Origin: Rhodospirillales bacterium
Lineage (GTDB): Bacteria > Pseudomonadota > Alphaproteobacteria > BOG-932 > Roseiterribacteraceae
DNA: 44,748 bases
Assembly (NCBI GenBank): GCA_003165335.1
Contig: PLTD01000141.1
Span: 27,300-72,047 of the forward strand
Reading direction: 5' to 3'
Within the stretch, counting starts at the first letter, position 1; each line of letters starts with the position of its first letter. Both the position numbers and the translations under genes were made by a program. Under the pieces are notes generated by a model that did no database searches, was not told the DNA's origin, and saw nothing but the letters and a program-made list of their open reading frames with translations. Shown here piece by piece: positions 15,536 to 34,327 of the stretch.

Positions 15536-16470
15536 AGCACCGCCAGCGGATTAACCGGGCTGCCTGTGCCGCCGACGATCTTCAGCGGCGCGACGACGAA
15601 GAGGAAAGTCGCCTGTCCAGCGGCGGCCAGTTCCTCGAGCCACAGCATCTCGATCAGATAGATCCCATGCCGCCAGAGGAAGATCATGTGGATGTCGTCG
15701 TCCAGGCTTTCATCCGCCCGGCCTTGAACATTGAGGCCCGAGATCGCGGAATTGTCGCTGGCAACCAATGCGATGTCCCGCGCGGCCAGCCATTGAGCGG
15801 CATCGCACGACAGTCCCGGCTCGCCGTTCCAGTAACGCTCCGGACTCTGCGAGAAGACGGTCGGCCAACCGGTGCGGATGACGACCGCATCGCCCTGCCC
15901 GACGGTAATGCCCATCAGCTCAGACATGGCCTCCAGATCCACCGCGCTGATCCGGTCATCGGGGTCGAGAACTTCGATGCCGCGAAAGGCGGGGACATCG
16001 AACAAAACGCCCCGTGTTACGATCCCTTCGACATTCTCCATCCCGCAGCGCGTCGCGCCATAGGACCGGATACGCGATGACGGGTGGCCGTTATAGATCT
16101 GCTTGCCAGTCCACATATGGCAAAGTGCATCCATATGCGTTGTCGTGCCGTGCGGCGATACGATCAGAGCATCGTCGGCCATGCCGCGCCCACCTGCAGG
16201 GAGTTTGACCCCGGCCTCGTAGTCCGCCCCGTCGACCGACATAAAATGCTGCGGCAATGGCCGCCCTTTCAGATGGGGTACGGTGCTGGAAACGCTGCTT
16301 GATGTCGAACCTTTAATAGGTAGGCTTAGGCTGAGCACCCTGCCCTGAGCGACAGAACTCATAGCCGAGCGCACGACGTCGCCGCTCAAAAGATTGAGCG
16401 CCCCGCGCTGATCCTCTTCACCCCATCGGCCCCAATTGTTGGGTTTCGGCGCCTGATCGGATTGGCTCAT
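15532..16470 (-). CDS. Cyclase family protein (kynurenine formamidase-like hydrolase)
   Basis: 312 residues. The metal motif of the cyclase/formamidase family is present: SPHGTTTHMDALCHMW gives H107, H112, D114 and H118, the HxxxxHxDxxxH spacing of this fold. Family members hydrolyse formamides, lactones or cyclic imides with zinc or manganese in the cytosol. The N-terminal stretch NNWGRWGEEDQRGALN is typical of the subgroup found beside acyl-CoA metabolism genes in actinobacteria and sphingomonads. GAGGGAAGCC precedes the ATG at 16470. It sits between the thiolase-like gene and the DUF35 gene, so it may hydrolyse a lactone or enol intermediate of the same branch (inference). Confidence 0.88.
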   Translation of the reverse strand: MSQSDQAPKPNNWGRWGEEDQRGALNLLSGDVVRSAMSSVAQGRVLSLSLPIKGSTSSSVSSTVPHLKGRPLPQHFMSVDGADYEAGVKLPAGGRGMADDALIVSPHGTTTHMDALCHMWTGKQIYNGHPSSRIRSYGATRCGMENVEGIVTRGVLFDVPAFRGIEVLDPDDRISAVDLEAMSELMGITVGQGDAVVIRTGWPTVFSQSPERYWNGEPGLSCDAAQWLAARDIALVASDNSAISGLNVQGRADESLDDDIHMIFLWRHGIYLIEMLWLEELAAAGQATFLFVVAPLKIVGGTGSPVNPLAVL

Positions 16471-16479: not shown

Positions 16480-17643
16480 CTATTCGCGCGTCAAAATGGC
16501 GGCCGATCCGACACTACCGCCAAAGCCGGTGCAAAGCGCCGATGCAGCATTCTGCACTTGTCGATCACCCGCCCTGCCCTGCAACTGCTCCACTGCTTCG
16601 ACCACATTGTTCAGGCCATGCACATAGCCTTCTGACAGCAGACCGCCGTTGAGGTTGGTGGGCAGATCGCCATCGCGCGCCAGTCTACCGCTGTGGATGA
16701 TGTCCCCGACCTCGCCCGCTCGGCAATAGCCGAAGTCTTCAAGCTGATTCAGCAACAAATAAGAATAGGCATCATAGAGCTGCAGCAGGTTTATATCCCC
16801 AGGCTTCATCCCTGCCGCCTCGAAAATCATCGGCGCAACCGTGTGCGAGAATATTCGGGTGGGATTGGCGCCCGCCTTATCCATAGCCGTGCAGCCGGGG
16901 GCGCCGCCTCGCACGGCCGCATGAATCAGCACCGGACTGTCGATAAGAGATCGCGCGCGCGCCGCCGATGTCACGACCAAAGCGCAAGCCCCGTCGGTTT
17001 CCAAACAGCAATCGAGCCGGCGAAGCGGGCTCGCGATCATCGGAGAATCGAGATACTCCTGGCAGGTCAGCGGTGCGCGAAGCAGGGCTTTAGGATTTTG
17101 CACAGCCTTAGCCCGCTGCTGTACCACCAACTCAGCTGTGTCATCTTCTGTCAATTCGCGCTCTGCGGCATAACGTTGAGCGACCAACGCCATCAGATTG
17201 ACCGGGCCGCGAAAGCCGAAGGGTGTCAGGAATTCCGCTTCGTGATCGTCGCCCGAGCCCAGCGCGATCTGCCCCATCCGTATGCCGCTGCGCCCGTTCA
17301 GCGCGCGATAGATCACGACTGTTTCAGCCAAACCGGCCGAAATAACCATCGCAGCATCGCCGAGGATCGAGGCGCATTGGCTGCCGCCCCCGGCAATATC
17401 ATTATGCCAGGCAAGGCGGGGCAAACCCAGAGTGCGGGCAACCGTCGTGACGGGGACCGAATCGCTCATATGGTATGAAATCAGCCCATCCACAGACTGT
17501 CGCTCGAGACCGGCATCAGCGAGTGCCCGAGTAACGGCCTCCAATGCCAATTCAAGCACCGTTCTGCCGGACTCGCGGCTGAACGTGGTATACCCGACAC
17601 CGATGATCGCGGCCTGGCGTGAGAAAGGCTGGCGAGACGTCAT
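16480..17643 (-). CDS. Thiolase-like protein (SCP-x/Ltp type)
   Basis: 387 residues. Candidate catalytic residues are C90 in AGGGSQCASILG, H342 in GYVHGLNN and C371 in ALCTGFGGSVG. All three positions of a thiolase are thus filled, unlike aldolase-type Ltp2 proteins that have lost the nucleophilic Cys. The second motif, GYVHGLNNVVEA, differs from the usual GHPxGATG and marks the actinobacterial/sphingomonad Ltp-like subgroup that works with DUF35 partners. The start is the ATG at 17643, which overlaps the LLM 2 stop by one base (TGATG); the frame extends one codon further as TTG. Likely role: carbon-carbon bond cleavage on a CoA thioester, by thiolysis or retro-aldol. Confidence 0.88.
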   Translation of the reverse strand: MTSRQPFSRQAAIIGVGYTTFSRESGRTVLELALEAVTRALADAGLERQSVDGLISYHMSDSVPVTTVARTLGLPRLAWHNDIAGGGSQCASILGDAAMVISAGLAETVVIYRALNGRSGIRMGQIALGSGDDHEAEFLTPFGFRGPVNLMALVAQRYAAERELTEDDTAELVVQQRAKAVQNPKALLRAPLTCQEYLDSPMIASPLRRLDCCLETDGACALVVTSAARARSLIDSPVLIHAAVRGGAPGCTAMDKAGANPTRIFSHTVAPMIFEAAGMKPGDINLLQLYDAYSYLLLNQLEDFGYCRAGEVGDIIHSGRLARDGDLPTNLNGGLLSEGYVHGLNNVVEAVEQLQGRAGDRQVQNAASALCTGFGGSVGSAAILTRE

Positions 17644-18707
17644 CAACAGAATTCCGGCATGACCTCTTCGGCGAACAGCTTAATGACCTTCTTCATGTCC
17701 TCGATCGGCATAGGCCGTGTGCTGCCGAAATCGCACATGACATTGCTGTAGCCCAACCCCTGCAATGTCTTGATCTGGCCGATCACGCGTTCCGGATCGC
17801 CGATCACTTCAAGCTGGTCCCAGCGAAAATCGTCACTGAGAGTGCCGCCCTTCAGGTACCTGTCCTGCCAGTGCTCATATCCCTTGGCGATCTCACCCGT
17901 CTTCTTATCGATCGGAGCGTTCTGAATATTGACGATACTGGCACGATCGAATCCGGCCTCGAACCTGGCGAGGTCGGCACGCGCCTTGTCGTTGGTTTCG
18001 GCGACATAGACGGTGCGCATCGCGCAGAGTTCGATACCGTCGGTGGTAAAGCCGTTGGCCGCCATTTCGGTGCGCCACACATCGGCGGCGCGGCCAAGGT
18101 TGCGGAATGTGGCGACCGGGTCGCCTAGAATCGGCAGGCCGCGTTGCGCCACGCGTTTGACGGTTTCGGGACTGACCGAGGCGACCCAGGTGGGCGGGCC
18201 CGGCCGCTGCAGCGGCTTCGGCTTCAGCGTCGCATCTTCGCAGCGATAGAACTGTCCTTGATGGGTCACGGTGTCGTCTCGCCATAGCTTGAGGATCAGA
18301 TCCAGCGCCTCGTCGAAACGATCGCGCGCCTCGGCAATGTCGACGCCGAAGCGGTTGAACTCACCCGACTGATAGCCGCGCCCGACGCCGAAATTCACCC
18401 GCCCGTTCGACAGCATGTCCAGCTGGGCGATTTCCTCCGCCACGAGCACTGGGTTATGGAGCGGCAGCACGATGATACCGGTACCGAGCCGCAGCCGCGT
18501 TGTGCGCGCCGCAAGATAGGACAGGATGCCGGGTATGCTGTTGCACAGGCCGTAATTGCGGAAGTGGTGCTCGGCGGCCCATATGCCGTCGAAGCCCATC
18601 TCCTCGAGATATTCGACCAGCTCGATATTATAGGTGAAGACCTCCCGCTCGCTCCAGCCGGGATGCTGGTGGAACAGGTGGAAGGTCGAGAACTTCATCT
18701 TGCCCAT
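17643..18707 (-). CDS. LLM-class flavin-dependent monooxygenase (LLM 2)
   Basis: 354 residues from the ATG at 18707 (MGKMKFSTF), with GAGG eight bases upstream. The frame is open to 18776, but that part overlaps the ligase gene and has no family similarity. Luciferase-like barrel signs are GIWAAEHHFRNYG (double His region), TTRLRLGTGIIVLPLHNP, LDMLSNGRVNFGVGRGYQSGEF and PGPPTWVASVSPETV. It belongs to the larger FMN monooxygenase group together with LLM 3 and 4, which share the EHH and RVxFGxGxG patterns. Substrate unknown. It is in the middle of the long operon, between the FadD3-like ligase and the thiolase-like gene. Confidence 0.9.
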   Translation of the reverse strand: MGKMKFSTFHLFHQHPGWSEREVFTYNIELVEYLEEMGFDGIWAAEHHFRNYGLCNSIPGILSYLAARTTRLRLGTGIIVLPLHNPVLVAEEIAQLDMLSNGRVNFGVGRGYQSGEFNRFGVDIAEARDRFDEALDLILKLWRDDTVTHQGQFYRCEDATLKPKPLQRPGPPTWVASVSPETVKRVAQRGLPILGDPVATFRNLGRAADVWRTEMAANGFTTDGIELCAMRTVYVAETNDKARADLARFEAGFDRASIVNIQNAPIDKKTGEIAKGYEHWQDRYLKGGTLSDDFRWDQLEVIGDPERVIGQIKTLQGLGYSNVMCDFGSTRPMPIEDMKKVIKLFAEEVMPEFC

Positions 18708-18723
18708 CGTCGCCGCCTCTCTC

Positions 18724-20343
18724 TCAGTGGCTTGCATTGGCGATGACGTCGGCGGCTGCTTCTCGCCGTAGGACATCTTTCATCACCTTTCCATTTCCGT
18801 TGAGCGGGAGTGTGTCACGCACGTAGACGCGGCGCGGCACCTTGTAGCCGGCGAGATTCTGCTTGGCCCAGGCAATCACGTCGCTTTCGCTGACCTGCTG
18901 CCCGCTCGACGGTACGACGAAAGCGACGCCGACCTCGCCCCGCGCCTCGTCGGGAATGCCGACAACCGACACGGCCGAGAGCGGCCCCATCTGAAGGAGC
19001 AGATTTTCGACTTCCGCCGGATAGGCGTTGAAACCGCCGCAGATGAACATATCCTTCTTGCGGTCGACGATGGTGATATTGCCGGCCGCGTCGCACACGC
19101 CGATATCGCCGGTGTGAAACCAGCCGCCTGGCTCCATGCTGGCCTCGGTCTGCGCCGGATCGTGCCAGTAGCCCAGCATGATGCCATAGCCCCGCGTCAA
19201 AATTTCGCCAGCCGCCCCGGCCGGCACTTCCGCGCCAGCGTCGTCGACGATCTTCACTTCCATGCCCGGCATCACGCGGCCGGTGCTCGTCGAGATCACC
19301 GTCTCGTCGTCTTCCGCCCGCGTCATCGACACGACACAGGCCTCCATCAGCCCATAGGCGTTGATCACACGCTCAATGCCAAGCACCGCACGGACCCGCC
19401 GCAATATCTCGGCCGGCACGCTGGCCGCGCCCAGAAAAGCGACGCGCAGCGACTTGGGCGGATTCGCGGCCACGCCGGGTTGGTCCATCAGCCGGGCATA
19501 GAGATTTGGCGGCCCGCCCATGACGCTGATCTTATGCCGGCGGATGAGTTCCATCGCATGGCCAGGTTCAAAGATTTCAAGCAGCACCATGCACATGCCC
19601 CTGAGCGCCGAGGCGATAATCCCGGCATTCAGTCCGAAGCCGTGGGAGAACGGCGTGATGACCAGGTAATTGTCGCTGCTATTCAGGCTGCCGATGCCGC
19701 TCCAGCCCCAATAGGCGCGCAACAACTGCGCGTGGTCGAGCTGCACTCCCTTTGGCACACCGGTGGTGCCGGAAGTGAAGATGACCTCGGACACGTCCCC
19801 CTGGGCCACCGCGGCGATCGCCGCGTCCAGGAGTGAATCCGGGATGGAACTGCCGGTCGCCACGAAATCGGCGAAGCCGTTCGCGCCGTGGTCTAGGTCA
19901 AGTCGGACAATTTTGCGCAGCGTCGGCAGACCCTCCAGGTGCGCGCCGTAGGCGGCGCGCAGGCTGTCGATGAAATGGATGCCGGCGCATTCGTCGGCGG
20001 TGAAGAGGATCGGTGCGCTTGTGCGTTCAAGCACCGGGCCGGCCTCGAACACCTTGAGTCGGCTCGAGATCGGGACGATCGACGCGCCGACCAGCCATAC
20101 TGCGTGGACCATCACCACCCAGCGCCAGCCGTTAGGCGCCCATGCCGCGACCAGATCGCCGGGCCTTAATTCCGCTGCAATCAGTGCCTTGGCGAGCGCC
20201 CGCGCGTGCCCGTGCAGTTCGCCATAGGTCAATTGCCGGTCGCCGTCGATAACGGCGGTGCGGTCAGCATAACGCCGCGCATTGTCCGCCAGCATGCGCC
20301 CGATAGTGCGCCAGCCCGGAACTTCGGAGGTGTCGACAACCAT
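18724..20343 (-). CDS. FadD3-like acyl-CoA synthetase
   Basis: 539 residues with all ANL core motifs intact: FTSGTTGVPKGV (P-loop, 189-200), INAYGLMEA, GWFHTGDIGVCD, DRKKDMFICGGFNAYPAEVE and the C-terminal LPLNGNGKVMK with catalytic K519. Overall wording (WAPNGWRWVVMVHAVW, SDNYLVITPFSHGFG, GPPNLYARLMDQP) is close to FadD3 of mycobacteria, the ligase that activates the steroid ring-C/D propanoate HIP and belongs to the KstR2 regulon. Here too the operon is preceded by a KstR2-like operator. The actual substrate need not be HIP because no other HIP-pathway gene is present. A two-base gap separates it from the upstream SDR. Confidence 0.9.
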   Translation of the reverse strand: MVVDTSEVPGWRTIGRMLADNARRYADRTAVIDGDRQLTYGELHGHARALAKALIAAELRPGDLVAAWAPNGWRWVVMVHAVWLVGASIVPISSRLKVFEAGPVLERTSAPILFTADECAGIHFIDSLRAAYGAHLEGLPTLRKIVRLDLDHGANGFADFVATGSSIPDSLLDAAIAAVAQGDVSEVIFTSGTTGVPKGVQLDHAQLLRAYWGWSGIGSLNSSDNYLVITPFSHGFGLNAGIIASALRGMCMVLLEIFEPGHAMELIRRHKISVMGGPPNLYARLMDQPGVAANPPKSLRVAFLGAASVPAEILRRVRAVLGIERVINAYGLMEACVVSMTRAEDDETVISTSTGRVMPGMEVKIVDDAGAEVPAGAAGEILTRGYGIMLGYWHDPAQTEASMEPGGWFHTGDIGVCDAAGNITIVDRKKDMFICGGFNAYPAEVENLLLQMGPLSAVSVVGIPDEARGEVGVAFVVPSSGQQVSESDVIAWAKQNLAGYKVPRRVYVRDTLPLNGNGKVMKDVLRREAAADVIANASH

Positions 20344-20345: not shown

Positions 20346-21050
20346 TCAGCCTGCCATCGTCAGCCCGCCGCCGACACTGAGTGTTTGCCCGGTTATGTAA
20401 CTAGCCGCTGGGCTCATCAGGAAGACAACCGCAGCTGCAACATCGACTGGTAGCCCGACGCGCTTCATCGGAACCTTCTTGACCAGCTTATCGATGATCT
20501 CCTGGTTTGGCGCTGACATCGGCGTTGCAATGATGCCGGGCGAAACGCAATTGACCGTGATGCCGAGGCGTCCCACCTCCTGGGCGAGACTTTTGCTGAA
20601 CGCGGCAAGTCCGCCCTTGGTGCCCGAATATACCGCTTCTCCAGCAGCACCGACGCGACCGGAGTCGGACGTTATATTGACAATAGCACCACCGCCATTG
20701 GCTGCGATAACCGGCACCAATGCCTGGCAGGCAGTGAGCGGCGCGAGAAAGTTTATATTTACCAGCGTGCGCCAATCCGCCTCGGAACTATCCTGAAATC
20801 TACCGACCTTCGCGATGCCGGCGCAATTGACCAATCCAACGATCTCGTTGGCATCGGCCACGCGTGCGAGGCCGTTACGAAAACCGATGCTGTCGCAAAT
20901 ATCCTGCTCGACACGCTCGGCCAGATAGTCGTGGTCCCGGGAAAATTTTATGTCGAACCCGATGACAAGCCAGCCCGCTGCCGAAAGAGCTTCCGCTGTC
21001 GCGCGACCGATACCGCCAGCTGCACCAGTGACGATCACTGCCCGGCTCAT
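20346..21050 (-). CDS. SDR-family oxidoreductase (long-operon copy)
   Basis: 234 residues, classical SDR. Cofactor motif TGAAGGIG (8-15), NCAG in place of NNAG (75-78), active-site Y141 and K145 in VYSGTKGG, and the C-terminal [16 protein letters not shown] typical of FabG-like enzymes. D33 after the second strand (GFDIKFS) suggests NAD rather than NADP. It oxidises or reduces a secondary alcohol/ketone. The ATG at 21050 overlaps the stop of the PaaK-like gene as ATGA. Confidence 0.9.
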
Positions 21051-22114
21051 GCCCGCTTCACGCCCAGATGATGGCCTCGCAGGTCAACGACAACTTCCCT
21101 CTCCTTAGCCTGATCGGACGACAGAAACTCCGTCTTTACTTCGACGTGAACCTGTGTCGCTGCTGACAGTGACTGCTGGATCCGTCCCTTCCACATCGGG
21201 TTGGAAACCAGCGTTTCACGATCGAAAGCAACCGTCAGTACGAGATTGTCCAAAGTCCGGTCGCCGCGGTCGATTGTAAGCGTCCAGCGAGAGATGCCGT
21301 CGATTAGCGCGAGCTGTCGCCGAATCAACGGAAGGGACACAGACTGTCCCCGCGCCAAGACATGATCACCCACAGTATGATTGAACAATCCGGCGTCGGC
21401 GGTATCACCCTTAATGACGTGGCCTGTCCTGATAACTGAATTGCTCATCGCAGCAGACCAGGTCGGCCTTAACAGCAATTCGCCATCGGCAGATAGGCCT
21501 TCGGACAGAATGTCGTCAGATGCCAGAGCGCCAATGGCCAGCGCATTTTCGTCCGCCAATTCCCAGTTCCCGCTGCGGCGTGCGGCCAAAGCAGCGCCAA
21601 AGACCGGGTCGCAATAGACTTCCGACAGGTCGGCTTCGAACTCCTTGGCGATACGCTTCCTGACGCCCGGCGACGCAATTTCTCCGACCAAAATTATCTT
21701 AGTGAGATTGAGCTCGACCGGATCGACATTGAACTCCATGTAAAGCCGGGCCAGAAAGTCTGCTGCACCGCATGGCGTCGTCACCAGCACATTGGGCTTA
21801 AGCGTGCGAACAGTCGAAAGCAGCCGCAACCGCCCCCTTGGCGAAGTCACCGATGTGCTGGAAACCATCGGCGCGGCAGCTTGCGCTAACAGCCCAACCG
21901 ACGGCGACCCATCGTGGTTGATGGCAAATAATACGCGGTCATTTTTCGCCAACCCTGCCAATTCGAGAGACCGGCGCGATAGCAACTGCATTGCTACGAT
22001 TTCTGGTTCTGCCAAAGGCACACCGTATTCGGCGGGTGAAGAGGCGAACAAGATGGCACCCTGCACAGGCTTTCCGCCGAGTTTGGCTAGACCCGTGCGG
22101 TTGAGAAAGGTCAC
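21047..22114 (-). CDS. PaaK-like adenylate-forming protein, divergent
   Basis: 355 residues, shorter than phenylacetate-CoA ligases (about 430). Resemblance to the PaaK group: [11 protein letters not shown] occupies the place of the usual phosphate-loop [22 protein letters not shown] the acyl-binding region, GELLLRPTW...VIRTGHVI the GELVxT...RYRTGD segment, and a C-terminal ferredoxin-like ACT-type domain ([23 protein letters not shown]) is kept. The Gly/Thr-rich loop and the RYRTGD Asp are lost, so normal ATP chemistry is doubtful. It may be a CoA-ligase relative with altered chemistry or a non-catalytic subunit. The GTG start overlaps the LLM 3 stop (GTGA). Confidence 0.72.
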
Positions 22115-23184
22115 GAGGCGAAACCGGCGACATCGCGTGCGAAGGATTCCATCGCCGATACTGTTCTCGCATGAGACAGACCGCCGACCTCGAACTGACC
22201 GATCAGGTCGGTCGCCCCGGCGGCAAAAAACTCATCAAGGGCTTTACGGGATTCCGTGACATCCGCCATGACAATCATACGATGGCGCGTCAATTCCTCG
22301 AGAGCCTTATCTTCCGACATCCCGGCTGCGAGTTGTCCGAAGACACGATAGGTCGCGTGCTGGGCGTCACGGTAATCTGGAGGTGCCACGAGATTTACCT
22401 GACGTCGGATATACCACATGAAGGCGCTGACAACGTCCTCTAGGTCTTCACCCGGTTTTGTGACGAACCACGGAACCATTATGGCGACCCGGCGCGTCTG
22501 CGGATCAAATCCACACTCGGCCAGCCGATTCTTGTACTTGGCGATATCCGCCGCCAGCCCTTCGAGGCCCTTCAGTATCGGCATGCATAAAAGATGATAA
22601 CCGCGCTCAGCCGCCGCGAGAAAACCATCCAGACTGGTAGAGGCAACCCAAACCTCGGGGTAGGGCTTTTGCACAGTCCGGGGCAGCACCGACACGCCGG
22701 GGATCTTATAGAATTCGCCCTCGCGCGTTACTTCGCCGCCGTCCGCCTCGAATATCTCCAATACGGCGTCAAGATGTTCTTCCCAAATTTGACGGCTTTG
22801 CTCAAAAGGCCGTTGAAAAGCCTGATACTCTAGGGGCGATGCACCGCGACCGGTTCCGAAAAGCACGCGACCGTTGCTGATGACATCGAGCGTTGCAACA
22901 CGCTCTGCGACGCGGATCGGACTGAGAAATGGCAACAGCACGACACCGAGACCAAGCTTTATGTTCTTCGTTGTCCTCGCGGCCGCAGCCAACATCAGGT
23001 CCGGCGCAGAGGAGTGAGAAAAGCCGCGCGTGAAGTGGTGCTCGACAAACCAGGCCGCGTCATAGCCCAGTGCATCCGCGATATCGATTTGCTTCAGGAC
23101 ATTGTGAAACATCTCCTGCTCGATGCCGGATGTCCGTCCGCGCACGGCGACCTCGAAGAATATCCCGAAATTCCGCTTCGCCAT
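22111..23184 (-). CDS. LLM-class flavin-dependent monooxygenase (LLM 3)
   Basis: 357 residues, first gene of the eleven-gene operon. Family features: FGIFFEVAVRG start strand, AAWFVEHHFTRGFS, ARTTKNIKLGLGVVLLPF, LDVISNGRVLFGTGRGASPLEY and PYPEVWVASTSLDGF. It probably uses FMNH2 supplied by a reductase encoded elsewhere. The ATG at 23184 is preceded by a GGGCGGGCG stretch, a weak ribosome site. The palindromic operator lies at 23263-23278, about 80 bases before the start. Confidence 0.9.
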   Translation of the reverse strand: MAKRNFGIFFEVAVRGRTSGIEQEMFHNVLKQIDIADALGYDAAWFVEHHFTRGFSHSSAPDLMLAAAARTTKNIKLGLGVVLLPFLSPIRVAERVATLDVISNGRVLFGTGRGASPLEYQAFQRPFEQSRQIWEEHLDAVLEIFEADGGEVTREGEFYKIPGVSVLPRTVQKPYPEVWVASTSLDGFLAAAERGYHLLCMPILKGLEGLAADIAKYKNRLAECGFDPQTRRVAIMVPWFVTKPGEDLEDVVSAFMWYIRRQVNLVAPPDYRDAQHATYRVFGQLAAGMSEDKALEELTRHRMIVMADVTESRKALDEFFAAGATDLIGQFEVGGLSHARTVSAMESFARDVAGFAS

Positions 23185-23262: not shown

Positions 23263-23278
23263 CCAAGCAAGCGCTTGG
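23263..23278. promoter_or_regulatory. KstR2-like operator at the promoter of the long operon
   Basis: CCAAGCAAGCGCTTGG, containing the perfect palindrome CAAGCGCTTG. On the minus strand it lies exactly between TTTGAC (-35-like) and TTAATT (-10-like), filling a 16-base spacer, so a bound repressor would block RNA polymerase. The known KstR2 box is AnCAAGnnCTTGnT, matched here except for the final T. Copies occur at 26061 and 31297 and a weaker one at 5188. Confidence 0.7.
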
Positions 23279-23293
23279 GTCAAATTAACCCCT

Positions 23294-23315
23294 CCGGCCT
23301 TTGTGTCAAGGCCGG
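23294..23315 (-). terminator. Hairpin after the Old Yellow Enzyme gene, possible terminator
   Basis: Stem CCGGCCTT (23294-23301 region) against AAGGCCGG (23308-23315), eight perfect pairs with a six-base loop, five bases after the stop at 23321. There is no clean U tract on the minus strand (AGGGGTTAATTT follows), so it may be a weak or partial terminator separating this unit from the long operon. Confidence 0.45.
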
Positions 23316-23320
23316 CTATT

Positions 23321-25306
23321 TCAAAAGAGCGAGCGGCCGAGCCTGGCTCCATCAAGCGTCGCATGAAGCATACGACGCGGCGACAAGGCGTCGCCAATGA
23401 CGTGCACCTCAAGTCCCAATTCCTTGAGGGTAGGAGCCAAACCGTCATTCGGCACCCGCCCGGCCACTACCACAACGGAATCGACTTCATCAATGCTGCC
23501 CGGGGTATTGGTGAGACTATTTCGTGTCGCAAGCACGCCTGAGGAAAATCGAACGGCAGCCGTCGTCGGCTGGATATTTACGCCGGCCTCAAGCAACCGT
23601 TTGATCAAGATTACGAGACTTGCCGACTCTAGCGCGGAACCCGGCGCGATATTTTCGGTAAGCAACGTGACCCTTCGGCCGATACGCGCAAGAAAATCGG
23701 CCAAGAGCAGCGGCGGCAGGTGGTCATCCAACCCTCCAGCGACAACCACGCGCGATCCGACCTGAGAAGAATCCTCCAGCACTTGGGCCGCATCGAGAAC
23801 TGAGCCGGGAATATCGGTCGGCAATTGATCGCGGTAGCGAGCCCCAGTCGCGAGAACCACGGCGTCCGGGCCAAAGTTTTCGATCATCGGCAAATCTGCT
23901 TCAAGGCCTAACCGAAGTTCGATATCCGACCTTTTGATTCGTCGCCGAATATATTCGAGATATTTCCCGTAATCTGCTTGTTGTGCGGTTTCAGCCAACG
24001 AGATCAGCATACCTCCCATTTCTGTCCGCCGATCGACCAGAACAACGCGGTGTCCGCGTTCGGCCGCAGAGGCAGCACACTCCAGCCCTGCCGGTCCCGC
24101 ACCGACAACCAGGATGCGCTTTGGGGTAGGCGTCGCAACGATCTCCATCTCCGCCTCGCGACCAGCGGACGGATTGCTTGCGCAGGCCACAGCCCGCCCA
24201 TAATGACATTCGTTGCCGCCTATGCAGGGAATTACGCTTCCGTTTCTCCCGGAAAATGACTTTGCGATGGCGCGCGGATCAGCGATCAGTGCTCGGACCA
24301 TCCCGACCATGTCGGCATCCCCCCGAGCCACGATCGCCTCGGCGACATCGAAATCTGCAATGCGCCCCGCGACAATAACGGGGATGTTGACTGCACGCTT
24401 GACGGCCGCGGCCGTGGGAGCATTAGGTCCCTGTTTGACGAATGCTGGCGCCACATACGCCAGATTGGCGCCTCCGCGCAGCCCTGCATAAGAACCGCCG
24501 GAGAAACTCACATAGCCTGCGCCCTCTTCAGAAAGACGCTGTGACACTGCCACAATATCTTCTAGCTCAAGGCCTCCTGTGACGTAATCTTCGGTCGTAA
24601 GGCGCACACCGATAAGGAAGCCTTCGCCAACTGCACTGCGCACCGCGCGATATATCTCGACCAAAAAGCGCGTTCGGTTTTCAAGGGTACCGCCATAGGC
24701 GTCTGTCCGCCTGTTAAACAGGGGTGATAGAAATTGATGCGGCAGGTAACCGTGCGCCGCATGGAGTTCGATCCCGTCGTATCCGGCGACGACAGCACGC
24801 GCAGCGCACAATGCAAATGCCTGGACCAGATCGGCTATTTCGTCCCCGGTTAACGGGTGCGGGTTATGGCGCTCATATTCGTCCGGTACAGCCGAGGGCG
24901 AGACAGTGGGCTGGAAATTGTCGGAATGTTGAGCGGAACCGGCGTGATAAAGCTGGCCGACACATTTCGCGCCATGGGCGTGAGCGATGTCTGCCCAGGC
25001 ACGATAAGTTGGAATCAGTGAATCGTAATAAGCGCGCCCCTCCACAGTCAGCGGATGCGGCGGCACTGCGTCCAGATCTGCTGCATGCGCCAAAAATGCG
25101 CGTCCCGGACCAAACGGAAATTGCATTAATCCAAGCGGCCCCAGATTGAAGCCCATGAAGCCGACGCCGCCCCGCGCCCGCTCTTCCAGATAGCGCAGAT
25201 AGCGGGACTGCGAGAGACGCGGGCCGTGCGTCGTCAGCATTATGCGGTTGGGAAGAGTCAGTGGCCCTAATGAAATCGGCTGGCGCAGATAGGGAAACGG
25301 ATCCAT
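23321..25306 (-). CDS. Old Yellow Enzyme / 2,4-dienoyl-CoA reductase-type flavoprotein
   Basis: 661 residues, the size of FadH-type enzymes. The N-terminal FMN barrel (1-340) has the active-site HAAHGYLPHQFLSP (H182, H185, Y187) and the phosphate-binding GRIADFDVAEA region. The iron-sulfur segment then reads CIGGNECHYGRAVAC (C361, C367, C375), where bacterial dienoyl-CoA reductases have C-x2-C-x3-C-x11-C. The second Cys is Gly here, so a normal 4Fe-4S cluster is doubtful unless other Cys help. The C-terminal FAD/NAD domain starts with the dinucleotide motif VVGAGPAGLEC (about 400-410). It probably reduces an enoyl- or dienone-type C=C bond. It follows the TetR gene by 26 bases, so the two form one operon under the operator at 26061. 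Confidence 0.9.
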   Translation of the reverse strand: MDPFPYLRQPISLGPLTLPNRIMLTTHGPRLSQSRYLRYLEERARGGVGFMGFNLGPLGLMQFPFGPGRAFLAHAADLDAVPPHPLTVEGRAYYDSLIPTYRAWADIAHAHGAKCVGQLYHAGSAQHSDNFQPTVSPSAVPDEYERHNPHPLTGDEIADLVQAFALCAARAVVAGYDGIELHAAHGYLPHQFLSPLFNRRTDAYGGTLENRTRFLVEIYRAVRSAVGEGFLIGVRLTTEDYVTGGLELEDIVAVSQRLSEEGAGYVSFSGGSYAGLRGGANLAYVAPAFVKQGPNAPTAAAVKRAVNIPVIVAGRIADFDVAEAIVARGDADMVGMVRALIADPRAIAKSFSGRNGSVIPCIGGNECHYGRAVACASNPSAGREAEMEIVATPTPKRILVVGAGPAGLECAASAAERGHRVVLVDRRTEMGGMLISLAETAQQADYGKYLEYIRRRIKRSDIELRLGLEADLPMIENFGPDAVVLATGARYRDQLPTDIPGSVLDAAQVLEDSSQVGSRVVVAGGLDDHLPPLLLADFLARIGRRVTLLTENIAPGSALESASLVILIKRLLEAGVNIQPTTAAVRFSSGVLATRNSLTNTPGSIDEVDSVVVVAGRVPNDGLAPTLKELGLEVHVIGDALSPRRMLHATLDGARLGRSLF

Positions 25307-25332
25307 GGATCAACGCCAGTGAAAGGGGCGGG

Positions 25333-25983
25333 TCAGCGCTCGATACCGCCAAAAATGAGAGCGATTTGGGTATCGATGATCTTGTCGATGGAATATCGGC
25401 CACCCGACCGATACCAACCAACCGCTGAAGCGACGAGATCGTTTATCATCCGAAGAACGAGATGCAGATCCAAATCGTTACGGAACACCCCTTCGTCGGC
25501 CCCCCTCTGCAGAACGCCATACCATATCTTGCTGATGTCCTTCCAAGCAGTTTCGACATACGAAAAGGTCGGATGGCGCGCTAAAAAATTTCGCTCATGC
25601 ACGGTTATCGCGACGATATGCGGATTGCTGACCACCGTGCGCAGCCCAAGTTCGATCATAGCGCAGATGGTCTCCTTCGGTCCCCTTCCACGATCTACTA
25701 TCGCGCGATATTCGGGAATCATCGATACGAAACCCTTCAATAGATCGTGGAGCATTTCCTCCTTGGTCTGGAAATGATGATAGAGGCTGCCGGACAGAAT
25801 TCCTGCTGCGTCGCCGATCTCTCGGATCGTAGTTTCCTCGTAACCTTTGGCGGCGAATAGCTCTGCCGCTACCTGCAAAATTTCTTCCCGCCGCCGACTG
25901 ACTTTCTCAAGCGGCTTCGGTTTTTTCACCGGGTATGACCGTCGGTTTGCGGCGGCGATGCTGACTTTGCTCTTGGCGTCCAC
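25333..25983 (-). CDS. KstR2-like TetR-family regulator
   Basis: 216 residues from a GTG at 25983. The helix-turn-helix is at about 32-76, with TIREIGDAAGILSGSLYHHF followed by TKEEML. The AGILSGSLYHHF wording and the C-terminal WYRSGGRYSIDKI...ALIFGGIE are very close to mycobacterial KstR2, which binds an acyl-CoA (HIP-CoA) as inducer and represses steroid ring-C/D genes. The operator family in this window (CCAAGCAAGCGCTTGG) also fits the KstR2 box. One copy (26061-26076) lies about 80 bases upstream of this gene, which suggests autoregulation. The ligand is presumably a CoA thioester made by one of the ligases here; inferred. Confidence 0.9.
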   Translation of the reverse strand: MDAKSKVSIAAANRRSYPVKKPKPLEKVSRRREEILQVAAELFAAKGYEETTIREIGDAAGILSGSLYHHFQTKEEMLHDLLKGFVSMIPEYRAIVDRGRGPKETICAMIELGLRTVVSNPHIVAITVHERNFLARHPTFSYVETAWKDISKIWYGVLQRGADEGVFRNDLDLHLVLRMINDLVASAVGWYRSGGRYSIDKIIDTQIALIFGGIER

Positions 25984-26060
25984 TTACAACTTTCGCAGGC
26001 AATATATCGCAATGCGCGGTAGCGATTTCCATTTTTCGTAATTTGTCATGCCCAACAAGA

Positions 26061-26076
26061 CCAAGCAACCGCTTGC
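26061..26076. promoter_or_regulatory. KstR2-like operator upstream of the TetR gene
   Basis: CCAAGCAACCGCTTGC. Same spacing as the copies at 23263 and 31297 with changes in the core (AACCGCTTG for AAGCGCTTG). It lies in the 97-base gap between the GST stop and the TetR start, the expected place for autoregulation of the TetR/Old Yellow Enzyme operon. Confidence 0.6.
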
Positions 26077-26080
26077 GTAC

Positions 26081-26731
26081 TTAGGCGCCTGCTTCGACCG
26101 CAGCGACCTGCGCTGCAAACAGTTTGGCGTCCATAGATTTGACCTTCTCGACAGACGGCCGGTGATTGATCCGAGAGATATAGGTCATCACCTCGGGATA
26201 TTCCGGAACGAGTTTAAAACCCGTCATCCAGGAAAGCGATGTGCCCCACAGCACATCGGCTGCAGAGAAATGCTCCCCCAACAAATAGGGCCCTTTCCCC
26301 AATTGTTTGAAGACCGTCTGTAACATCGTATTGAAATCGCCGTATGGGCACCGCGAGGAAGGAACAGGAGGACGCTTCATCGAAAAATCGATAATGGCGG
26401 GTTCAAAACATGAGCCGTAATAGGCAAGCCAGCGCAAATAAGGACCACGCATCCGATCGCGCAGTGCGGGCGCCAAGCCCGCTTCGGGGAACAGGTCCGC
26501 CAAGTATATGTAGAGCGCAACCTGCTCGGTCACCAGCATATCACCGTGCAGAATCGCTGGAACTTTCCCCATCGGATTTATCTGCAGATATGCCGCCTCT
26601 CGCTGCTCGCCGGACTTCAGATTGAGCACCCGCAACTCGTATTCGGCCCCCAATTCTTCCAGCAAAATCAAAACACCTGCCGAGCGCGTTTTCGGCGAAT
26701 GGTAGAGTATGAGTTTGCGATCATCGCCCAT
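26081..26731 (-). CDS. Glutathione S-transferase family protein
   Basis: 216 residues from the ATG at 26731 (MGDDRKLILYHSP), with GGTGGA about eight bases upstream; a GTG four codons earlier is possible. N-terminal thioredoxin-like domain: LILYHSPKTRSAGVLILLEEL, then MGKVPAILHGDMLVTEQVAL holding the cis-Pro and the ES/EQ glutathione contact. C-terminal helical domain: LGEHFSAADVLWGTSLSW (N-capping S-x-x-D motif). Cytosolic. In catabolic islands such proteins may open epoxides, isomerise or remove thiol-reactive intermediates. It is the last gene of the operon 31253-26081, 68 bases behind the phosphotransferase-like gene. Confidence 0.88.
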   Translation of the reverse strand: MGDDRKLILYHSPKTRSAGVLILLEELGAEYELRVLNLKSGEQREAAYLQINPMGKVPAILHGDMLVTEQVALYIYLADLFPEAGLAPALRDRMRGPYLRWLAYYGSCFEPAIIDFSMKRPPVPSSRCPYGDFNTMLQTVFKQLGKGPYLLGEHFSAADVLWGTSLSWMTGFKLVPEYPEVMTYISRINHRPSVEKVKSMDAKLFAAQVAAVEAGA

Positions 26732-26799
26732 GCTGAATTCCACCGATCCGGTTCAATTGCGGTTTAAAGACTCAGCGCGTAGGCAAATTGGCAAATCGA

Positions 26800-28203
26800 T
26801 CAGACGCGCAAAGGCTGCAGGCTGGCGGTCTTACCCATGTCCCCCTGCGACAATGCCGCTTCTCCCAGCGCCAACTCCTGACGACGGGAATTTCGATAGA
26901 AATAGCGAATGAGAACCGCATCATGATCCGGCCCAACCTGTTGGACCAACTGGTCGAGTTTAAAATTGCCCTCGCTGATCGACGAGGGGCGATAGCCCAG
27001 TAGCGTCGCCATATCATCCAGTTCCTGGTTGTCGAGGAATTCGCCAATTCGAGACAACTGCCGCAGATGCTCAAACAAATAGATGGTTGAGCGCATCCGA
27101 TGCTGCTCATACGCGCCTTCTATGCGGGGCAGATGCTCATCGAGCAGATCGTCCCTTACGACATCGTAAAGCCGACTAAGCCGGTTGCCGGCATCGACAG
27201 GTGGCAGGGCGACCGTTTCTTCACTCAAATCGATACCGATAGCCTCGGCCAGCGATTCTGCGGTGACGCGCAAATACATCGCATTCCAAGCCAACCGTTC
27301 GGCTATATCGGCGTGCGATTTCGGGTGGGTTAACTCTGGGCCGATCAAAGCCAAGGGCGTGTTAACGAGACCCCTGACTGTGTAATAGCGGATAAGGTCA
27401 AAATCGAGTGGAATGCCCGATTCCTGCTCATAGACGCGAAAGCGCGCCACCATGTCGCCAAATGGGTGAAGCAGCGCGCGCTGTCGGATTTCGGCGAGAT
27501 CCTCCATCGGGCAGCCCCAATGGGCATATTCCCAATCGACAATCGCGGCGACTTTACCGTCTCGGTAAATGAACTGGCCCGGCCCGGTATCTCCCTGGAC
27601 GATGACCGTTCCAAGCACATGGTCTGGAACATGAGTTTTAAGCCAACGCTGGGCGAAACGCATAAAGGGTTCGGGCTCTTCTATCGTCTCGAAATGCGTA
27701 CGCTCCCAGAGTTCAAGGTCGTGAAGCGCATGTTCGGTCGCCGTACTCGGCACCCAGAATTCGTCGGGCGGCAACGCAAGATCGGAAGGCGTGAGTTTAT
27801 GAAGGCGGGCCAGAACGCGCATGAAGTCGTCGCCGGTACGATTACGTTCCTCTTCATCGGCGATATGATGAAAATGTACGCCGCCGTCCACGAAGTCCTG
27901 CAGCAGGGTGCGATGCTCGACATTGTATCCGTAGGTGCCGGGAACAGGAATTCCATGGCGCCCAAGGGCGATGATCAATTTGGCTTCGCGTGACAATGGG
28001 TAATGGCGATTGATACCCTTTTCGATGCCGCGATCACCGCGCAGGTAGAGTCGCTTAAGCCCTGACGCCGATTGTGTATCGATGAACCACGCGGGGCGAC
28101 CACGTCCCTGCTTTTGCGCACCTGTTACTTGGGCGGCAGTCGTGGTCTCAATCCATTGGACCAGCGACTTGTCCAAGCCCACGCGTTCAAAGTTCATCGA
28201 CAT
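26800..28203 (-). CDS. Phosphotransferase-family (APH-like) protein
   Basis: 467 residues from ATG 28203 (MSMNFERVG); the frame is open to 28260 but that part overlaps the upstream gene. Aminoglycoside-phosphotransferase/choline-kinase fold: VIVQGDTGPGQFIY in place of the Brenner motif HGDxxxxN and IVDWEYAHWGCPMEDLAEI with the metal Asp. The His and Asn of the first motif are changed (QGD, Q for N). Related proteins are encoded beside acyl-CoA dehydrogenases in many bacteria, and their substrate is mostly unknown. The C-terminal ~120 residues are an additional helical region. It overlaps the upstream gene by 17 bases, so the two are coupled. Confidence 0.8.
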   Translation of the reverse strand: MSMNFERVGLDKSLVQWIETTTAAQVTGAQKQGRGRPAWFIDTQSASGLKRLYLRGDRGIEKGINRHYPLSREAKLIIALGRHGIPVPGTYGYNVEHRTLLQDFVDGGVHFHHIADEEERNRTGDDFMRVLARLHKLTPSDLALPPDEFWVPSTATEHALHDLELWERTHFETIEEPEPFMRFAQRWLKTHVPDHVLGTVIVQGDTGPGQFIYRDGKVAAIVDWEYAHWGCPMEDLAEIRQRALLHPFGDMVARFRVYEQESGIPLDFDLIRYYTVRGLVNTPLALIGPELTHPKSHADIAERLAWNAMYLRVTAESLAEAIGIDLSEETVALPPVDAGNRLSRLYDVVRDDLLDEHLPRIEGAYEQHRMRSTIYLFEHLRQLSRIGEFLDNQELDDMATLLGYRPSSISEGNFKLDQLVQQVGPDHDAVLIRYFYRNSRRQELALGEAALSQGDMGKTASLQPLRV

Positions 28204-28984
28204 ATTTGTCCGTGCCCGGCACCGTCGGAATGAAGGGTGCCGCGTAAACGACCTTCCCAAGACCGGATTTCGTTAGTGCGCGGTCGAAACCATTGAAGTC
28301 CTGGCTCCAACCCGCCTGAGGATCATCTTCCAAAAACGACAGTAGCAAATAGCGCCGGTCGTGTTCCTCTGGGCTGGGACGCGGTACATAGGCAGGCGCG
28401 TCATCAGGCAATGCTTCGGGCCTGAGGCACAGCGTCATTGCAATGGGTGATCCGGCCATCATGCGTGGCAGTTGATCCTGCCGTAGCCAGTTCGATAGTT
28501 CGCTGTCCGAAGCGCTCGTTGCCCGATCGATCATGGTAACGGCAATGCCGCGATACGGATGCTCCAAGGCAAGCTCTGCTGGGACACCATCAGAATCGCG
28601 GAAGGCACCCCAGTTATAGCGATAGAATGCGGTGGTTATGTTGTCGCGTGGAGGCTGCATCCGGTTCTGCTTGTGAAGTTGCAGAACTTGGTCCACCGAC
28701 CAGCGTAAGGTCTCAGGATAAGTCCCGGCCTGTATCCAATATGTAACAAGATACGAGCCCTTGGCGATATCGGGCGTAACCGGAGTATTCGCAGGAAAAC
28801 GCAGAGCCTTCAAAGGCTTCGTCGCCACCCACCGTCGGCCGGAAAAGTAATTCTGGCCGATCATGCAGCCCGCATAAAAATGGTCGCGCTCATACCAGCG
28901 GTGAAATTCGCGCTCGTGTCCCGGTTTTGGCTCGACGATTGAGAACAGCACGCTGCCCAGCGCGATCTCAGGAATCTCCTTCAC
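28187..28984 (-). CDS. Two-domain EthD/dimeric alpha-beta barrel-like protein
   Basis: 265 residues from the GTG at 28984, which overlaps the upstream SDR stop as GTGA; the frame extends to 29062 but that part is shadow. The protein appears to hold two ferredoxin-like repeats: the first begins ALGSVLFSIVEPKPGHEREF with WYERDHFYAG, the second GIAVTMIDRATSASDSEL with WLRQDQLPRMM; the W-x3-D spacing recalls EthD-type domains. Such folds act as small dimeric catalysts or accessory proteins in polyketide, terpene and aromatic pathways. No catalytic residue is certain. I assign the fold, with moderate confidence, and no function. Confidence 0.65.
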   Translation of the reverse strand: MKEIPEIALGSVLFSIVEPKPGHEREFHRWYERDHFYAGCMIGQNYFSGRRWVATKPLKALRFPANTPVTPDIAKGSYLVTYWIQAGTYPETLRWSVDQVLQLHKQNRMQPPRDNITTAFYRYNWGAFRDSDGVPAELALEHPYRGIAVTMIDRATSASDSELSNWLRQDQLPRMMAGSPIAMTLCLRPEALPDDAPAYVPRPSPEEHDRRYLLLSFLEDDPQAGWSQDFNGFDRALTKSGLGKVVYAAPFIPTVPGTDKYVDEL

Positions 28985-29862
28985 GAGCCTGCCTCCTCGC
29001 CTGTAAGTCGACTGCGCAATACCGGATCGGATACGAACACCGGAAGGTTGTCGCCGTCGCAATAAGGTGCGCGCGCCAGCGCTCCGCCATCGATCGCGAG
29101 CGTTTGGCCGCTCACATAATCGGCAAGATCCGAGAGCAAAAAGAGCACCGCGCCGGCAACATCATCCGCCTCACCTCGCCGACCGAGCGGGATCACGTCA
29201 CGCGTGCGCTGACGCATTTCGTCGGTCTCTTTCGTGTCAAAGCGCGCGCGTCCGAGCTTCTGGGTTCGTATGGTGCCAGGGGCGACGGCATTGACCCGCA
29301 AACGGAAACGCCCCCATTCGACGGCCATTGAACGGGTCAGGTTGATAAGCGCGGCTTTTGCCGCCCCGTATCCTGCCCCATACGCCATCGAGACCAGGCC
29401 GGCTGCCGACGCTACGTTCACGATGCTCCCGCCCAGACCATGCGCCGCGATCGCGCGTGCAACCGCGGTCGAGGCGATTAAGGTAGGACGGAGGTTGAAG
29501 CGCATGACATCGTCAAAGGCCTCCGGTGCCAGCGGATCGGTCAAGGCTGTCCAATGATGCGGCAGCATCCCGCCGACGACATTCACAGCGCCTCTGATCG
29601 CACCCGCCTGCAACGAAGCTCGAACCAGCATGTCGTCCACTGCTTCTTGGTCCGAAAGATCCGCGTCGAGCACCAGATGCCCGCCTTCGAATGGGGCAAG
29701 TGCCTTGGTCGCGGTTTCACGCCCCAGTTCCGTCTTATCAACCGCAATCACCGTGGCGCCGGCCTCTGCCAGCATGACGCAGATTGCCGTACCGATCCCG
29801 CCTCCGCCGGCACCGGCGACCAGATAGGCACGTCGGTTCAGGTCGATGAGCTTGCCTGACAT
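28981..29862 (-). CDS. SDR-family oxidoreductase (operon copy 1)
   Basis: 293 residues. The cofactor loop is AGAGGGGIGTA (16-26), a glycine-rich variant of TGxxxGIG; D42 at the end of the second strand (IAVDKTE) suggests NAD. Active-site residues are S152, Y165 and K169 (GYGAAKAAL). NVVGG replaces NNAGG. The C-terminus extends about 25 residues past the usual SGQTLAIDGGALARAPY. Followed downstream by the EthD-like protein and preceded by a degenerate SDR three bases away, so the two SDRs are coexpressed and could form a complex. Confidence 0.88.
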   Translation of the reverse strand: MSGKLIDLNRRAYLVAGAGGGGIGTAICVMLAEAGATVIAVDKTELGRETATKALAPFEGGHLVLDADLSDQEAVDDMLVRASLQAGAIRGAVNVVGGMLPHHWTALTDPLAPEAFDDVMRFNLRPTLIASTAVARAIAAHGLGGSIVNVASAAGLVSMAYGAGYGAAKAALINLTRSMAVEWGRFRLRVNAVAPGTIRTQKLGRARFDTKETDEMRQRTRDVIPLGRRGEADDVAGAVLFLLSDLADYVSGQTLAIDGGALARAPYCDGDNLPVFVSDPVLRSRLTGEEAGS

Positions 29863-29865
29863 GAC

Positions 29866-30489
29866 CTAGACCGACATGTGGTTGCCGCCGTCGAGCATGA
29901 TTGTCGTTCCCGTTACCACCGGCGGCCCGAGCGTCAAGGTGGCAATAAAGGCGGCGACATCATGTTCGATATCCGGCGTTTTCAAAGCTGGCGGCACGCG
30001 CGTCTCGGTCACGCGTCCAGCGACATCGGGCGCCAACTGCTCCTGTGTCAGGGCGAGACAATTTACTGTAATGCCCTGCGCACCCCAACCGCGAGCCGCA
30101 GCCTTAGCCAGTGATCGGGCGCCCTCGCCCACCGCGCTGTAGGCCGCAAAATCAGCCGCACCGATCATAGCGATCGTCGGGACCAACAGAATGATCGTAC
30201 CCCCGCGCTGATTAAGGACGGCGTGTGCCTCCTGCAACGCGACGCGGACTGCGCCGAGCGGCGCCTCACAGCGTCTAATCCACTCGGCCTCATCCATTTC
30301 GGCGAGAGGTGCGGGCGTAAGACCGCCCGGATCGGTCACCGGGATCACGACCAGATCGACAGCGCCAGAAGTTTCGGCGACATGACGCGTAACCGATGCG
30401 CCCAGAGCGGTCAGCCCACGTGCGACGGCCGCGCCGACTTCGTCTCCTCCGAGAACCAGAGCATCCTTACCCGCCAACTGTGTGTCCAT
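29866..30489 (-). CDS. Degenerate SDR-family protein lacking catalytic Lys
   Basis: 207 residues, shorter than classical SDRs. The Rossmann motif TGxxxGIG is replaced by LGGDEVGAA (13-21), the active-site Ser by Pro/Thr (VPTIAMIG, 103-110), and after Y117 the lysine expected four residues later is a glycine (YSAVGEG). The C-terminal TGTTIMLDGGNHMSV is normal, so the fold is probably kept while catalysis is not. In the toluene-degradation enzyme BbsCD a catalytically dead SDR subunit pairs with an active one; a similar hetero-oligomer with either flanking SDR is plausible. GGGAAGTC precedes the ATG at 30489. Confidence 0.82.
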   Translation of the reverse strand: MDTQLAGKDALVLGGDEVGAAVARGLTALGASVTRHVAETSGAVDLVVIPVTDPGGLTPAPLAEMDEAEWIRRCEAPLGAVRVALQEAHAVLNQRGGTIILLVPTIAMIGAADFAAYSAVGEGARSLAKAAARGWGAQGITVNCLALTQEQLAPDVAGRVTETRVPPALKTPDIEHDVAAFIATLTLGPPVVTGTTIMLDGGNHMSV

Positions 30490-30497
30490 GACTTCCC

Positions 30498-31253
30498 CTA
30501 AACCATCGTTGCGCCGCCATTCACCAGGATCGTTTGACCCGTGATAAAGGCGCTATTCGGACCAATCAGAAAATTAAGCACCGGACCAACATCGGCTTGC
30601 GGTTCGCCGACGCGGCGCAACGCGGCTCCGGATTTTATATAGTCCCGCATCTCGGGTTGGGCATCGAAGAACTTGCCCATTGCAGGTGTCATCGCAACGG
30701 GCGCAATGGCGTTTACCCGTATCCCGGCCGGGCCCCATTCGCGCGCCAGACTTTTGACCAGGCCGCGCTGTGCGCCTTTGATCGCGGAATAGACGGGCAG
30801 CGGGAGACTACCTTCGATCCCTGCGTTCGAAACAAGGATTATAAAACTGCCGGCTACACGGCTTAGCGCCGGGAAAGCCGCCTGGGCGCAGTGGAATGCA
30901 GCCCGCAAGCCGACCGCAACTTGATCGTTCCAATCCTCGTCGGTCACATTTTGCAATTGTGCACCGCGGCCAGAAAAGCGACTGGTCGCATTATGGACCA
31001 AGGCATCGAGTTGCCCGAACCGGTCGAGGGTGACCGCCACTGCGGCTTCGACTTCCGCCCGTTCGGTAACGTCGCAGCGTAGCGCTATGGCATGCGCACC
31101 CAGAGCGCGTATTTCGGCGGCGACACCTTCGGCGGCATCGATATTGCGTGCGGTAATGACGACAGATGCCCCGGCCGAAGCTGCAGCCAGTGCCAATCCC
31201 CTTCCGACGCCTTGGGACGCCCCCGTCACCATGACTGTCTTGCCGCTCAACAT
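30498..31253 (-). CDS. SDR-family oxidoreductase (operon copy 2)
   Basis: 251 residues from the ATG at 31253 (MLSGKTVMVTG); a TTG two codons upstream is the other option. Motifs: TGASQGVG (10-17), HNAT in place of NNAG (88-91), S142, Y155 and K159 (VYSAIKG), and C-terminal ITGQTILVNGGATMV. It resembles FabG-like beta-hydroxyacyl-CoA or alcohol dehydrogenases. It is the first gene of the operon 31253-26081. The KstR2-like operator lies 44 bases upstream, with a TTGCCA/TAAGTT promoter pair around it, and a small GGCTC-ttatt-GAGCC hairpin (31272-31286) lies in the leader. Confidence 0.9.
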   Translation of the reverse strand: MLSGKTVMVTGASQGVGRGLALAAASAGASVVITARNIDAAEGVAAEIRALGAHAIALRCDVTERAEVEAAVAVTLDRFGQLDALVHNATSRFSGRGAQLQNVTDEDWNDQVAVGLRAAFHCAQAAFPALSRVAGSFIILVSNAGIEGSLPLPVYSAIKGAQRGLVKSLAREWGPAGIRVNAIAPVAMTPAMGKFFDAQPEMRDYIKSGAALRRVGEPQADVGPVLNFLIGPNSAFITGQTILVNGGATMV

Positions 31254-31296
31254 GCGCAAACTTTCCCCTTTGGCTCTTATTGAGCCGAACTTACAG

Positions 31297-31312
31297 CCAA
31301 GCGCTTGTTTGG
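31297..31312. promoter_or_regulatory. KstR2-like operator at the promoter of the SDR operon
   Basis: CCAAGCGCTTGTTTGG on the plus strand, CCAAACAAGCGCTTGG on the minus strand, containing the perfect CAAGCGCTTG core. On the minus strand the promoter-like TTGCCA (-35) and TAAGTT (-10) are separated by 16 bases that include most of the palindrome, the same layout as at 23263. Confidence 0.65.
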
Positions 31313-34243: not shown

Positions 34244-34327
34244 CGCAGCAGCGGCCGCCTATTTTAACCATTGTCCTTTAGGCGCATGAGATATCTTATT
34301 CCCTGCCGCTAATTTCGAGTCTTGACC

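Follow-up and report, generated by a model that had tools for sequence, protein, structure and literature searches.

KstR2 (Rv3557c) is the repressor through which mycobacteria regulate the degradation of the last steroid rings. Its regulon is described in Mycobacterium and Rhodococcus (PMC3068626, PMC5380842), and its M. tuberculosis site GCCGAGCAAGCGCTTGGTTGAT is gel-shifted by the purified protein (PMC3068626). AtuR and RdmA of Pseudomonas, which are also TetR-family regulators, bind AGCAAGCGCTTGG / CCAAGCGCTTGCT (PMC9973270). Bile-acid-degrading Proteobacteria have been reviewed as having no KstR2 homologue (PMC8399759), and in the literature we searched, no KstR2-clade regulator was found outside Actinobacteria. 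Here we analyzed a stretch of 44,748 nucleotides from the genome of an uncultured Rhodospirillales bacterium (contig PLTD01000141.1; hereafter the window), in which a TetR-family gene (25333..25983, minus strand) and three palindromes at 23263, 26061, and 31297 form a candidate KstR2-like regulon. A 16S fragment of the genome looks alphaproteobacterial by eye. All the evidence is sequence-based, and binding, repression, effector, and substrate are inferred from it.

The preliminary description of this DNA had reported near-identical palindromes at these three places, in the promoter gaps of leftward transcription units, and each was indeed found in the gap upstream of a leftward unit. The site at 23263-23278, before an eleven-gene operon, is CCAAGCAAGCGCTTGG without a mismatch. 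The site at 31297-31312, before an operon of short-chain dehydrogenase/reductase (SDR) genes, reads CCAAACAAGCGCTTGG on the minus strand, with one mismatch to CCAAGCAAGCGCTTGG. The site at 26061-26076, before the TetR/flavoprotein unit, reads CCAAGCAACCGCTTGC on the plus strand, with two mismatches; it is one arm base off CCAAGC-N4-GCTTGG and is placed between the stop of a glutathione S-transferase (GST) gene (26081) and the start of the TetR gene (25983). The core of the KstR2 operator AnCAAGnnCTTGnT is exact at 23263 and 31297 and carries one mismatch at 26061; its outer A/T are only partly present at the window sites. We scanned the 5.19-Mb assembly by pattern matching with mismatches, not with a weight matrix. 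The sites at 23263 and 31297 were the two best matches to CCAAGCAAGCGCTTGG genome-wide, and the site at 26061 was one of five two-mismatch matches, tied third. Under a dinucleotide model, one would expect 0.005 perfect sites and 0.23 sites with one mismatch per genome. Three of the seven genome sites with at most two mismatches lie inside one 8-kb stretch (P ~1e-7, somewhat overstated because the stretch was picked for its sites). The further claim that two sites sit in a -35/-10 spacer stood less firmly: weak hexamers with a 16-bp spacer can be picked out by eye at 31297 (TTGCCA/TAAGTT) and 23263 (TTTGAC/TTAATT), and these flanks are kept in the second genome of the genus (G002), but a sigma-70 consensus scan, itself uninformative, found no sigma-70-like promoter at the sites.

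The TetR gene has a GTG start at 25983, and its product carries the Pfam domains TetR_N and TetR_C_24. As had been proposed, the protein resembles KstR2: its best sequence matches in the Protein Data Bank were KstR2 of M. tuberculosis (4w1u/4w97, 150.7 bits) and 2ibd of RHA1 (142 bits), the next other family dropping to 73.6 bits, and its recognition stretch AGILSGSLYHHF is identical to the recognition helix of KstR2. The AlphaFold model (predicted local distance difference test score, pLDDT, 87.8) had 4w1u, 2ibd, and 4w97 as its top fold matches, with a Foldseek value of 1.9e-12 for KstR2, the next family reaching 3.9e-8. Maximum-likelihood tree inference placed the window protein, together with its ortholog and one paralog from G002, as sister to all actinobacterial KstR2s (98/91), so the kinship held but the protein fell outside the actinobacterial clade. 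This tree is a pruned version that replaced a quick tree with very long outgroup branches, and some long branches remain; since its sampling was centred on the query, with homologues capped at 80, it may miss intermediate proteobacterial members. The NCBIfam matches of the protein included no KstR2 equivalog model; its score with the KstR model was 20.6, below the cut-off of 280. Residues R162, W166, and R170 of KstR2, which we take to be the contacts with HIP-coenzyme A (CoA) and hence call the presumed ligand triad, correspond in the alignment to N/A/G in the window protein and N/A/D in its G002 ortholog, and RWR occupies these positions in all but two of the aligned actinobacterial KstR2-type proteins. 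By similarity and phylogeny, the window protein is a member of a KstR2-like sister lineage and not of the actinobacterial KstR2 clade. Such proteins are uncommon in the phylum: among 398 genomes drawn evenly from it, only the window protein and one AtuR-like protein passed E 1e-25, and of the order's five genomes, G002 alone has close relatives. A KstR2-like paralog in G002 (contig C272, L066:7482-8072) is 44% identical to the window protein, has M/G/E at the triad, and adjoins another Ltp gene; no CAAGCGCTTG box lies nearby. KstR2-like proteins of Novosphingobium and Paracoccus plasmids, ~30% identical, were set aside, with no convincing boxes near them.

The operon is also present in G002, where the proteins of matched genes are 68-90% identical, and the three best genome-wide matches to CCAAGCAAGCGCTTGG in that genome are all at promoters of this cluster. 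They lie at C359:16794 (perfect, at the orthologous promoter before the luciferase-like monooxygenase (LLM) operon), at C359:18450 (before the unit leading into the TetR gene), and, on another contig, at C392:17518 (before the orthologous SDR operon). At the LLM promoter, alignment of the two genomes showed a conserved 19-bp block in diverged surroundings, and a 26-bp block, TTGCCAAACAAGCGCTTGGCTGTAAG, is invariant among 31297, C392:17518, and C359:18450. Orthologs of the first two genes of the SDR operon follow the box in G002. No close homologue of the flavoprotein gene was found in G002 between the TetR gene and the operon, indicating that the operator stays with the operon despite a rearranged neighborhood. 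An operator at the TetR gene's own promoter is seen in the window (26061) and, in G002, upstream of the likely unit containing the gene. The proposal of KstR2-type operators at the TetR promoter and at two other units is borne out, and a further genome of the genus conserves the arrangement.

Orthologs of the first LLM gene of the operon (22111; 59-63% identical) occur in 15 of 32 actinobacterial genomes with KstR2-like genes, and in all 15, as well as in a record of Nonomuraea gerenzanensis, the gene is preceded at 7-52 bp by a perfect CCAAGCGAGCGCTTGG box, whose score shuffled upstream DNA never reached in 8,000 trials. In most, a PaaK-like ortholog and then a FadD3-like one follow. These 15 genomes, and none of seven others, also hold orthologs of the second LLM gene (17643; 58-64%), each behind a perfect box and with an ortholog of the ligase at 12047 adjoining. 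Altogether, a perfect CCAAGCGAGCGCTTGG was present at 31 of the 31 LLM promoters inspected in actinobacteria with KstR2, a count that does not represent independent events because the species are related. N. gerenzanensis has kstR2, ipdAB, and the LLM operon inside 45 kb, and no other TetR gene was found in the 49 kb spanning kstR2 and the LLM operon. Judged by these orthologies, the two phyla have both the operator and the operon in common. The actinobacterial LLM operons (L178-L192, L201-L215) were not found among KstR2 regulon genes in the literature searched. Contamination by an actinobacterial contig was considered and rejected: the tetranucleotide profile of the window fits its genome (0.92-0.95, compared with 0.3-0.4 for Nonomuraea/Actinoallomurus), the contig carries a TonB-plug/OmpA gene, and a second metagenome-assembled genome has the syntenic cluster. 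Since composition marks the window as native to its genome, any transfer would be old.

The eleven-gene operon, on the minus strand, begins with the LLM gene at 22111..23184 (Pfam Bac_luciferase). It is followed by a gene for a PaaK-like protein with an acyl-CoA-ligase fold (21047..22114), which has no Pfam match and was recognized from its AlphaFold model (modest pLDDT of 68.7; best fold match PaaK2, 2y4o, E 1.1e-15), and then by genes for an SDR oxidoreductase (20346..21050), a FadD3-related acyl-CoA ligase (18724..20343; NF005801, 541.9 bits, under its cut-off of 657), the second LLM (17643..18776), an Ltp-type thiolase/aldolase (16480..17646; NF005892, Thiolase_C_1), a PF04199 cyclase/hydrolase (15532..16470), a ChsH2-type OB/zinc-ribbon protein that is probably the partner of the Ltp protein (15155..15535), two acyl-CoA ligases (13583..15139 and 12047..13582), and, last, an enzyme dependent on thiamine diphosphate (ThDP; 10302..12038). 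Co-directional behind the TetR gene is a flavin oxidoreductase gene of the Old Yellow Enzyme/FadH type (23321..25306, minus strand; Pfam Oxidored_FMN and Pyr_redox_2; TIGR03997, 475.9 bits, under its cut-off of 793). The SDR operon (26081..31259, minus strand) comprises genes for an SDR (30498-31259), an SDR-like protein (29866-30489), another SDR (28981-29862), an APH-like protein (26800-28260), and the GST (26081-26743). In all, the 45 kb hold five LLM genes (1157-2083, 17643-18776, 22111-23184, 32619-33758, and 42829-44043), and a further one lies on the same contig (L030:15828-16796). Another TetR-family gene, at 34322-34942 near an SDR/aldehyde-dehydrogenase group, is ScbR-like by NCBIfam at 56 bits, far under the cut-off.

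The host genome has a set of HIP (steroid C/D-ring) genes on contig C203 (L168, 20000-39642), encoding ipdA (54%), ipdB (41%), ipdC (47%), ipdF (65%), echA20 (43%), and fadA6 (33%) homologues. No CAAGnnCTTG box was found in the 19.6 kb read at this cluster, so that control of the HIP genes (ipdABC/F, fadE30, echA20, fadA6), as exerted by KstR2, was not seen here, and the targets, and probably the effector, would differ from those of KstR2. Taken together with the changed triad, this suggests that the sensed molecule is probably not HIP-CoA. The ligase at 18724 is not the closest FadD3 homologue of its genome; one at C24:20839 is closer (48% vs 44%), and the closer homologue in G002 sits on its HIP contig, C189. 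Given the HIP cluster without a box and the closer FadD3 on C24, we read the regulon as a putative accessory CoA-dependent branch for an alicyclic acid rather than the HIP pathway, with the TetR protein as its local regulator by position.

In the mechanism we propose, the TetR protein would be an autoregulating repressor of the KstR2-like sister lineage, whose dimer would recognize CCAAGC-N4-GCTTGG operators (inner core CAAG-CG-CTTG) at three places: upstream of its own gene, of the eleven-gene LLM/FadD3-like/Ltp/ThDP operon, and of the SDR operon. A dimer seated across the promoter would block transcription until a CoA thioester from an early pathway enzyme arrives, probably one that a pathway ligase forms from an alicyclic acid of steroid or terpenoid origin; this thioester would enter the C-terminal pocket and release the repressor. 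We regard a three-operator, autoregulated, KstR2-like repressor as probable on the whole, and a real regulon under a KstR2-like variant with altered targets is the most likely account. The fuller version, namely that an alphaproteobacterial lineage kept the operator and helix, changed the pocket, and governs an LLM-based CoA pathway for alicyclic acids, with operator and operons in common with Streptosporangiales-type actinobacteria and the HIP genes outside, is put forward tentatively, at somewhat less than even chances.

Several observations weigh against this account. A genome scan for the motif had been suggested as a check; although the two best matches lie here, CCAAGC-N4-GCTTGG with at most one mismatch showed no genome-wide enrichment (27 sites versus 31 for the reversed control), but 5 of the 27 fall on the window's 72-kb contig. 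At 26061 the site departs from CCAAGCAAGCGCTTGG by two bases and is not kept in this form in G002, and a second TetR gene (34322-34942) is present in the window. The actinobacterial LLM boxes, with their GAGC centre, do not contain CAAGnnCTTG exactly, which leaves room for a different regulator at those promoters. Moreover, since AtuR and RdmA bind the same operator, KstR2-type control does not follow from the operator by itself, and the site does not point to a single protein. Chance palindromes in a GC-rich genome would agree with motifs of at most three mismatches being as common as in the reversed control, but the expectation of just 0.005-0.23 near-perfect sites per genome, the orthologous conservation, and the 31 of 31 actinobacterial LLM promoters effectively refute this explanation.

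A protein that is KstR2 in function, sensing HIP-CoA and controlling a steroid C/D-ring regulon with the FadD3-like ligase as HIP-CoA synthetase, would fit the closest solved relative being KstR2, the HIP gene set in the host, the LLM-operon ligase being the best FadD3 match in the Nonomuraea genome searched, and the position of the N. gerenzanensis operon, at ~40 kb from kstR2 and even closer to ipdAB. We consider this unlikely, given the box-free HIP cluster on C203, the closer FadD3 homologues elsewhere (C24; C189 in G002), N/A/G in place of R162/W166/R170, and the placement outside the KstR2 clade. Alternatively, the protein could be an AtuR-like regulator for terpenoid acids, its likeness to KstR2 reflecting a shared ancestral DNA-binding class. 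AGCAAGCGCTTGG is present at 23263, and the likely AtuR of genome G142, in an atu-like gene order, has the same 16-mer plus a second repeat upstream. However, the window protein scores ~94 bits to that AtuR-like protein versus ~132-159 bits to actinobacterial KstR2-type proteins, the tree separates the two, each window promoter has a single site instead of a pair 40-42 bp apart, and no geranyl-CoA carboxylase-type (atu) genes were found among the window proteins scanned; this possibility thus appears quite improbable. Because KstR2 and AtuR have this operator core in common, the site marks out a joint KstR2/AtuR class; the case for KstR2 comes from the protein. It is also conceivable, though very improbable, that the sites are read by another regulator, for example the second TetR protein or the reader of AAACCAAGCAAnTGnTTGs, with the KstR2-like protein a mere neighbor. 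That second motif family does have the CCAAGCAA half too, but TetR repressors usually control their own gene and neighboring genes, in both genomes a site stands before the KstR2-like gene or the unit to which it belongs, and recognition helix and box both fit KstR2.

The preliminary description had counted a weaker palindrome at 5188 as a possible fourth operator. The palindrome (5188-5205) is weak, with four mismatches to CCAAGCAAGCGCTTGG, as stated, but we rejected it as a member of the same set because it matches AAACCAAGCAAnTGnTTGs exactly. This second motif, which shares the CCAAGCAA half with the main operators, recurs on the same contig (C26; L030, L031) at 10568 and 12476 (exact) and 26416 (one mismatch), near TauD, amidohydrolase, and TonB-receptor genes. 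These sites look like a separate regulon with a similar half-site.

The window operators can be tested with published KstR2 gel-shift designs. The link of the operator to two LLM operons in two phyla suggests a flavin-monooxygenase branch in many actinobacterial KstR2-type regulons, which is a direct lead toward an uncharacterised step in the breakdown of steroids or terpenoids. A conserved operator set against a changed ligand pocket also offers a clean test of effector change in TetR regulators.

As for the known systems, KstR2-type control of such a gene set outside actinobacteria had been thought undescribed. We likewise found no KstR2-clade regulator outside Actinobacteria in the literature searched, but the operator itself is published for AtuR/RdmA (PMC9973270), and with actinobacterial LLM operons behind near-identical operators, this scheme of control is not peculiar to the bacterium studied here. 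The pdc LLM of Caenibius tardaugens, encoded near a TetR gene, performs the Baeyer-Villiger oxidation of progesterone (PMC12239570); it is likewise an LLM in a steroid-degrading alphaproteobacterium, in a different cluster, and this precedent is compatible with a steroid-derived ketone as the substrate but does not establish it. AtuR and RdmA are, like the window protein, proteobacterial TetR regulators with the same operator core and a role in acyl-CoA catabolism (predicted for the window protein), but they are more distant proteins and act through two inverted repeats 40-42 bp apart at the atu/dmg cluster. The Streptosporangiales-type operons (Nonomuraea, Actinomadura, and others) have orthologous LLM, PaaK-like, and FadD3-like genes behind CCAAGCGAGCGCTTGG; they differ in being split into at least two operons, in their GAGC-centre boxes, and in a KstR2 that keeps RWR. 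KstR2 itself is nearest by sequence and fold, with the same recognition helix and the same operator 16-mer (CCAAGCAAGCGCTTGG is found unaltered immediately before kstR2 in several mycobacteria), a site in front of its own gene, and a small number of local sites that each precede an operon for CoA-dependent catabolism. Unlike KstR2, the window protein stands outside the actinobacterial clade with a changed presumed ligand triad, the HIP genes are unmarked, and the sites precede LLM/Ltp/ThDP and SDR units.

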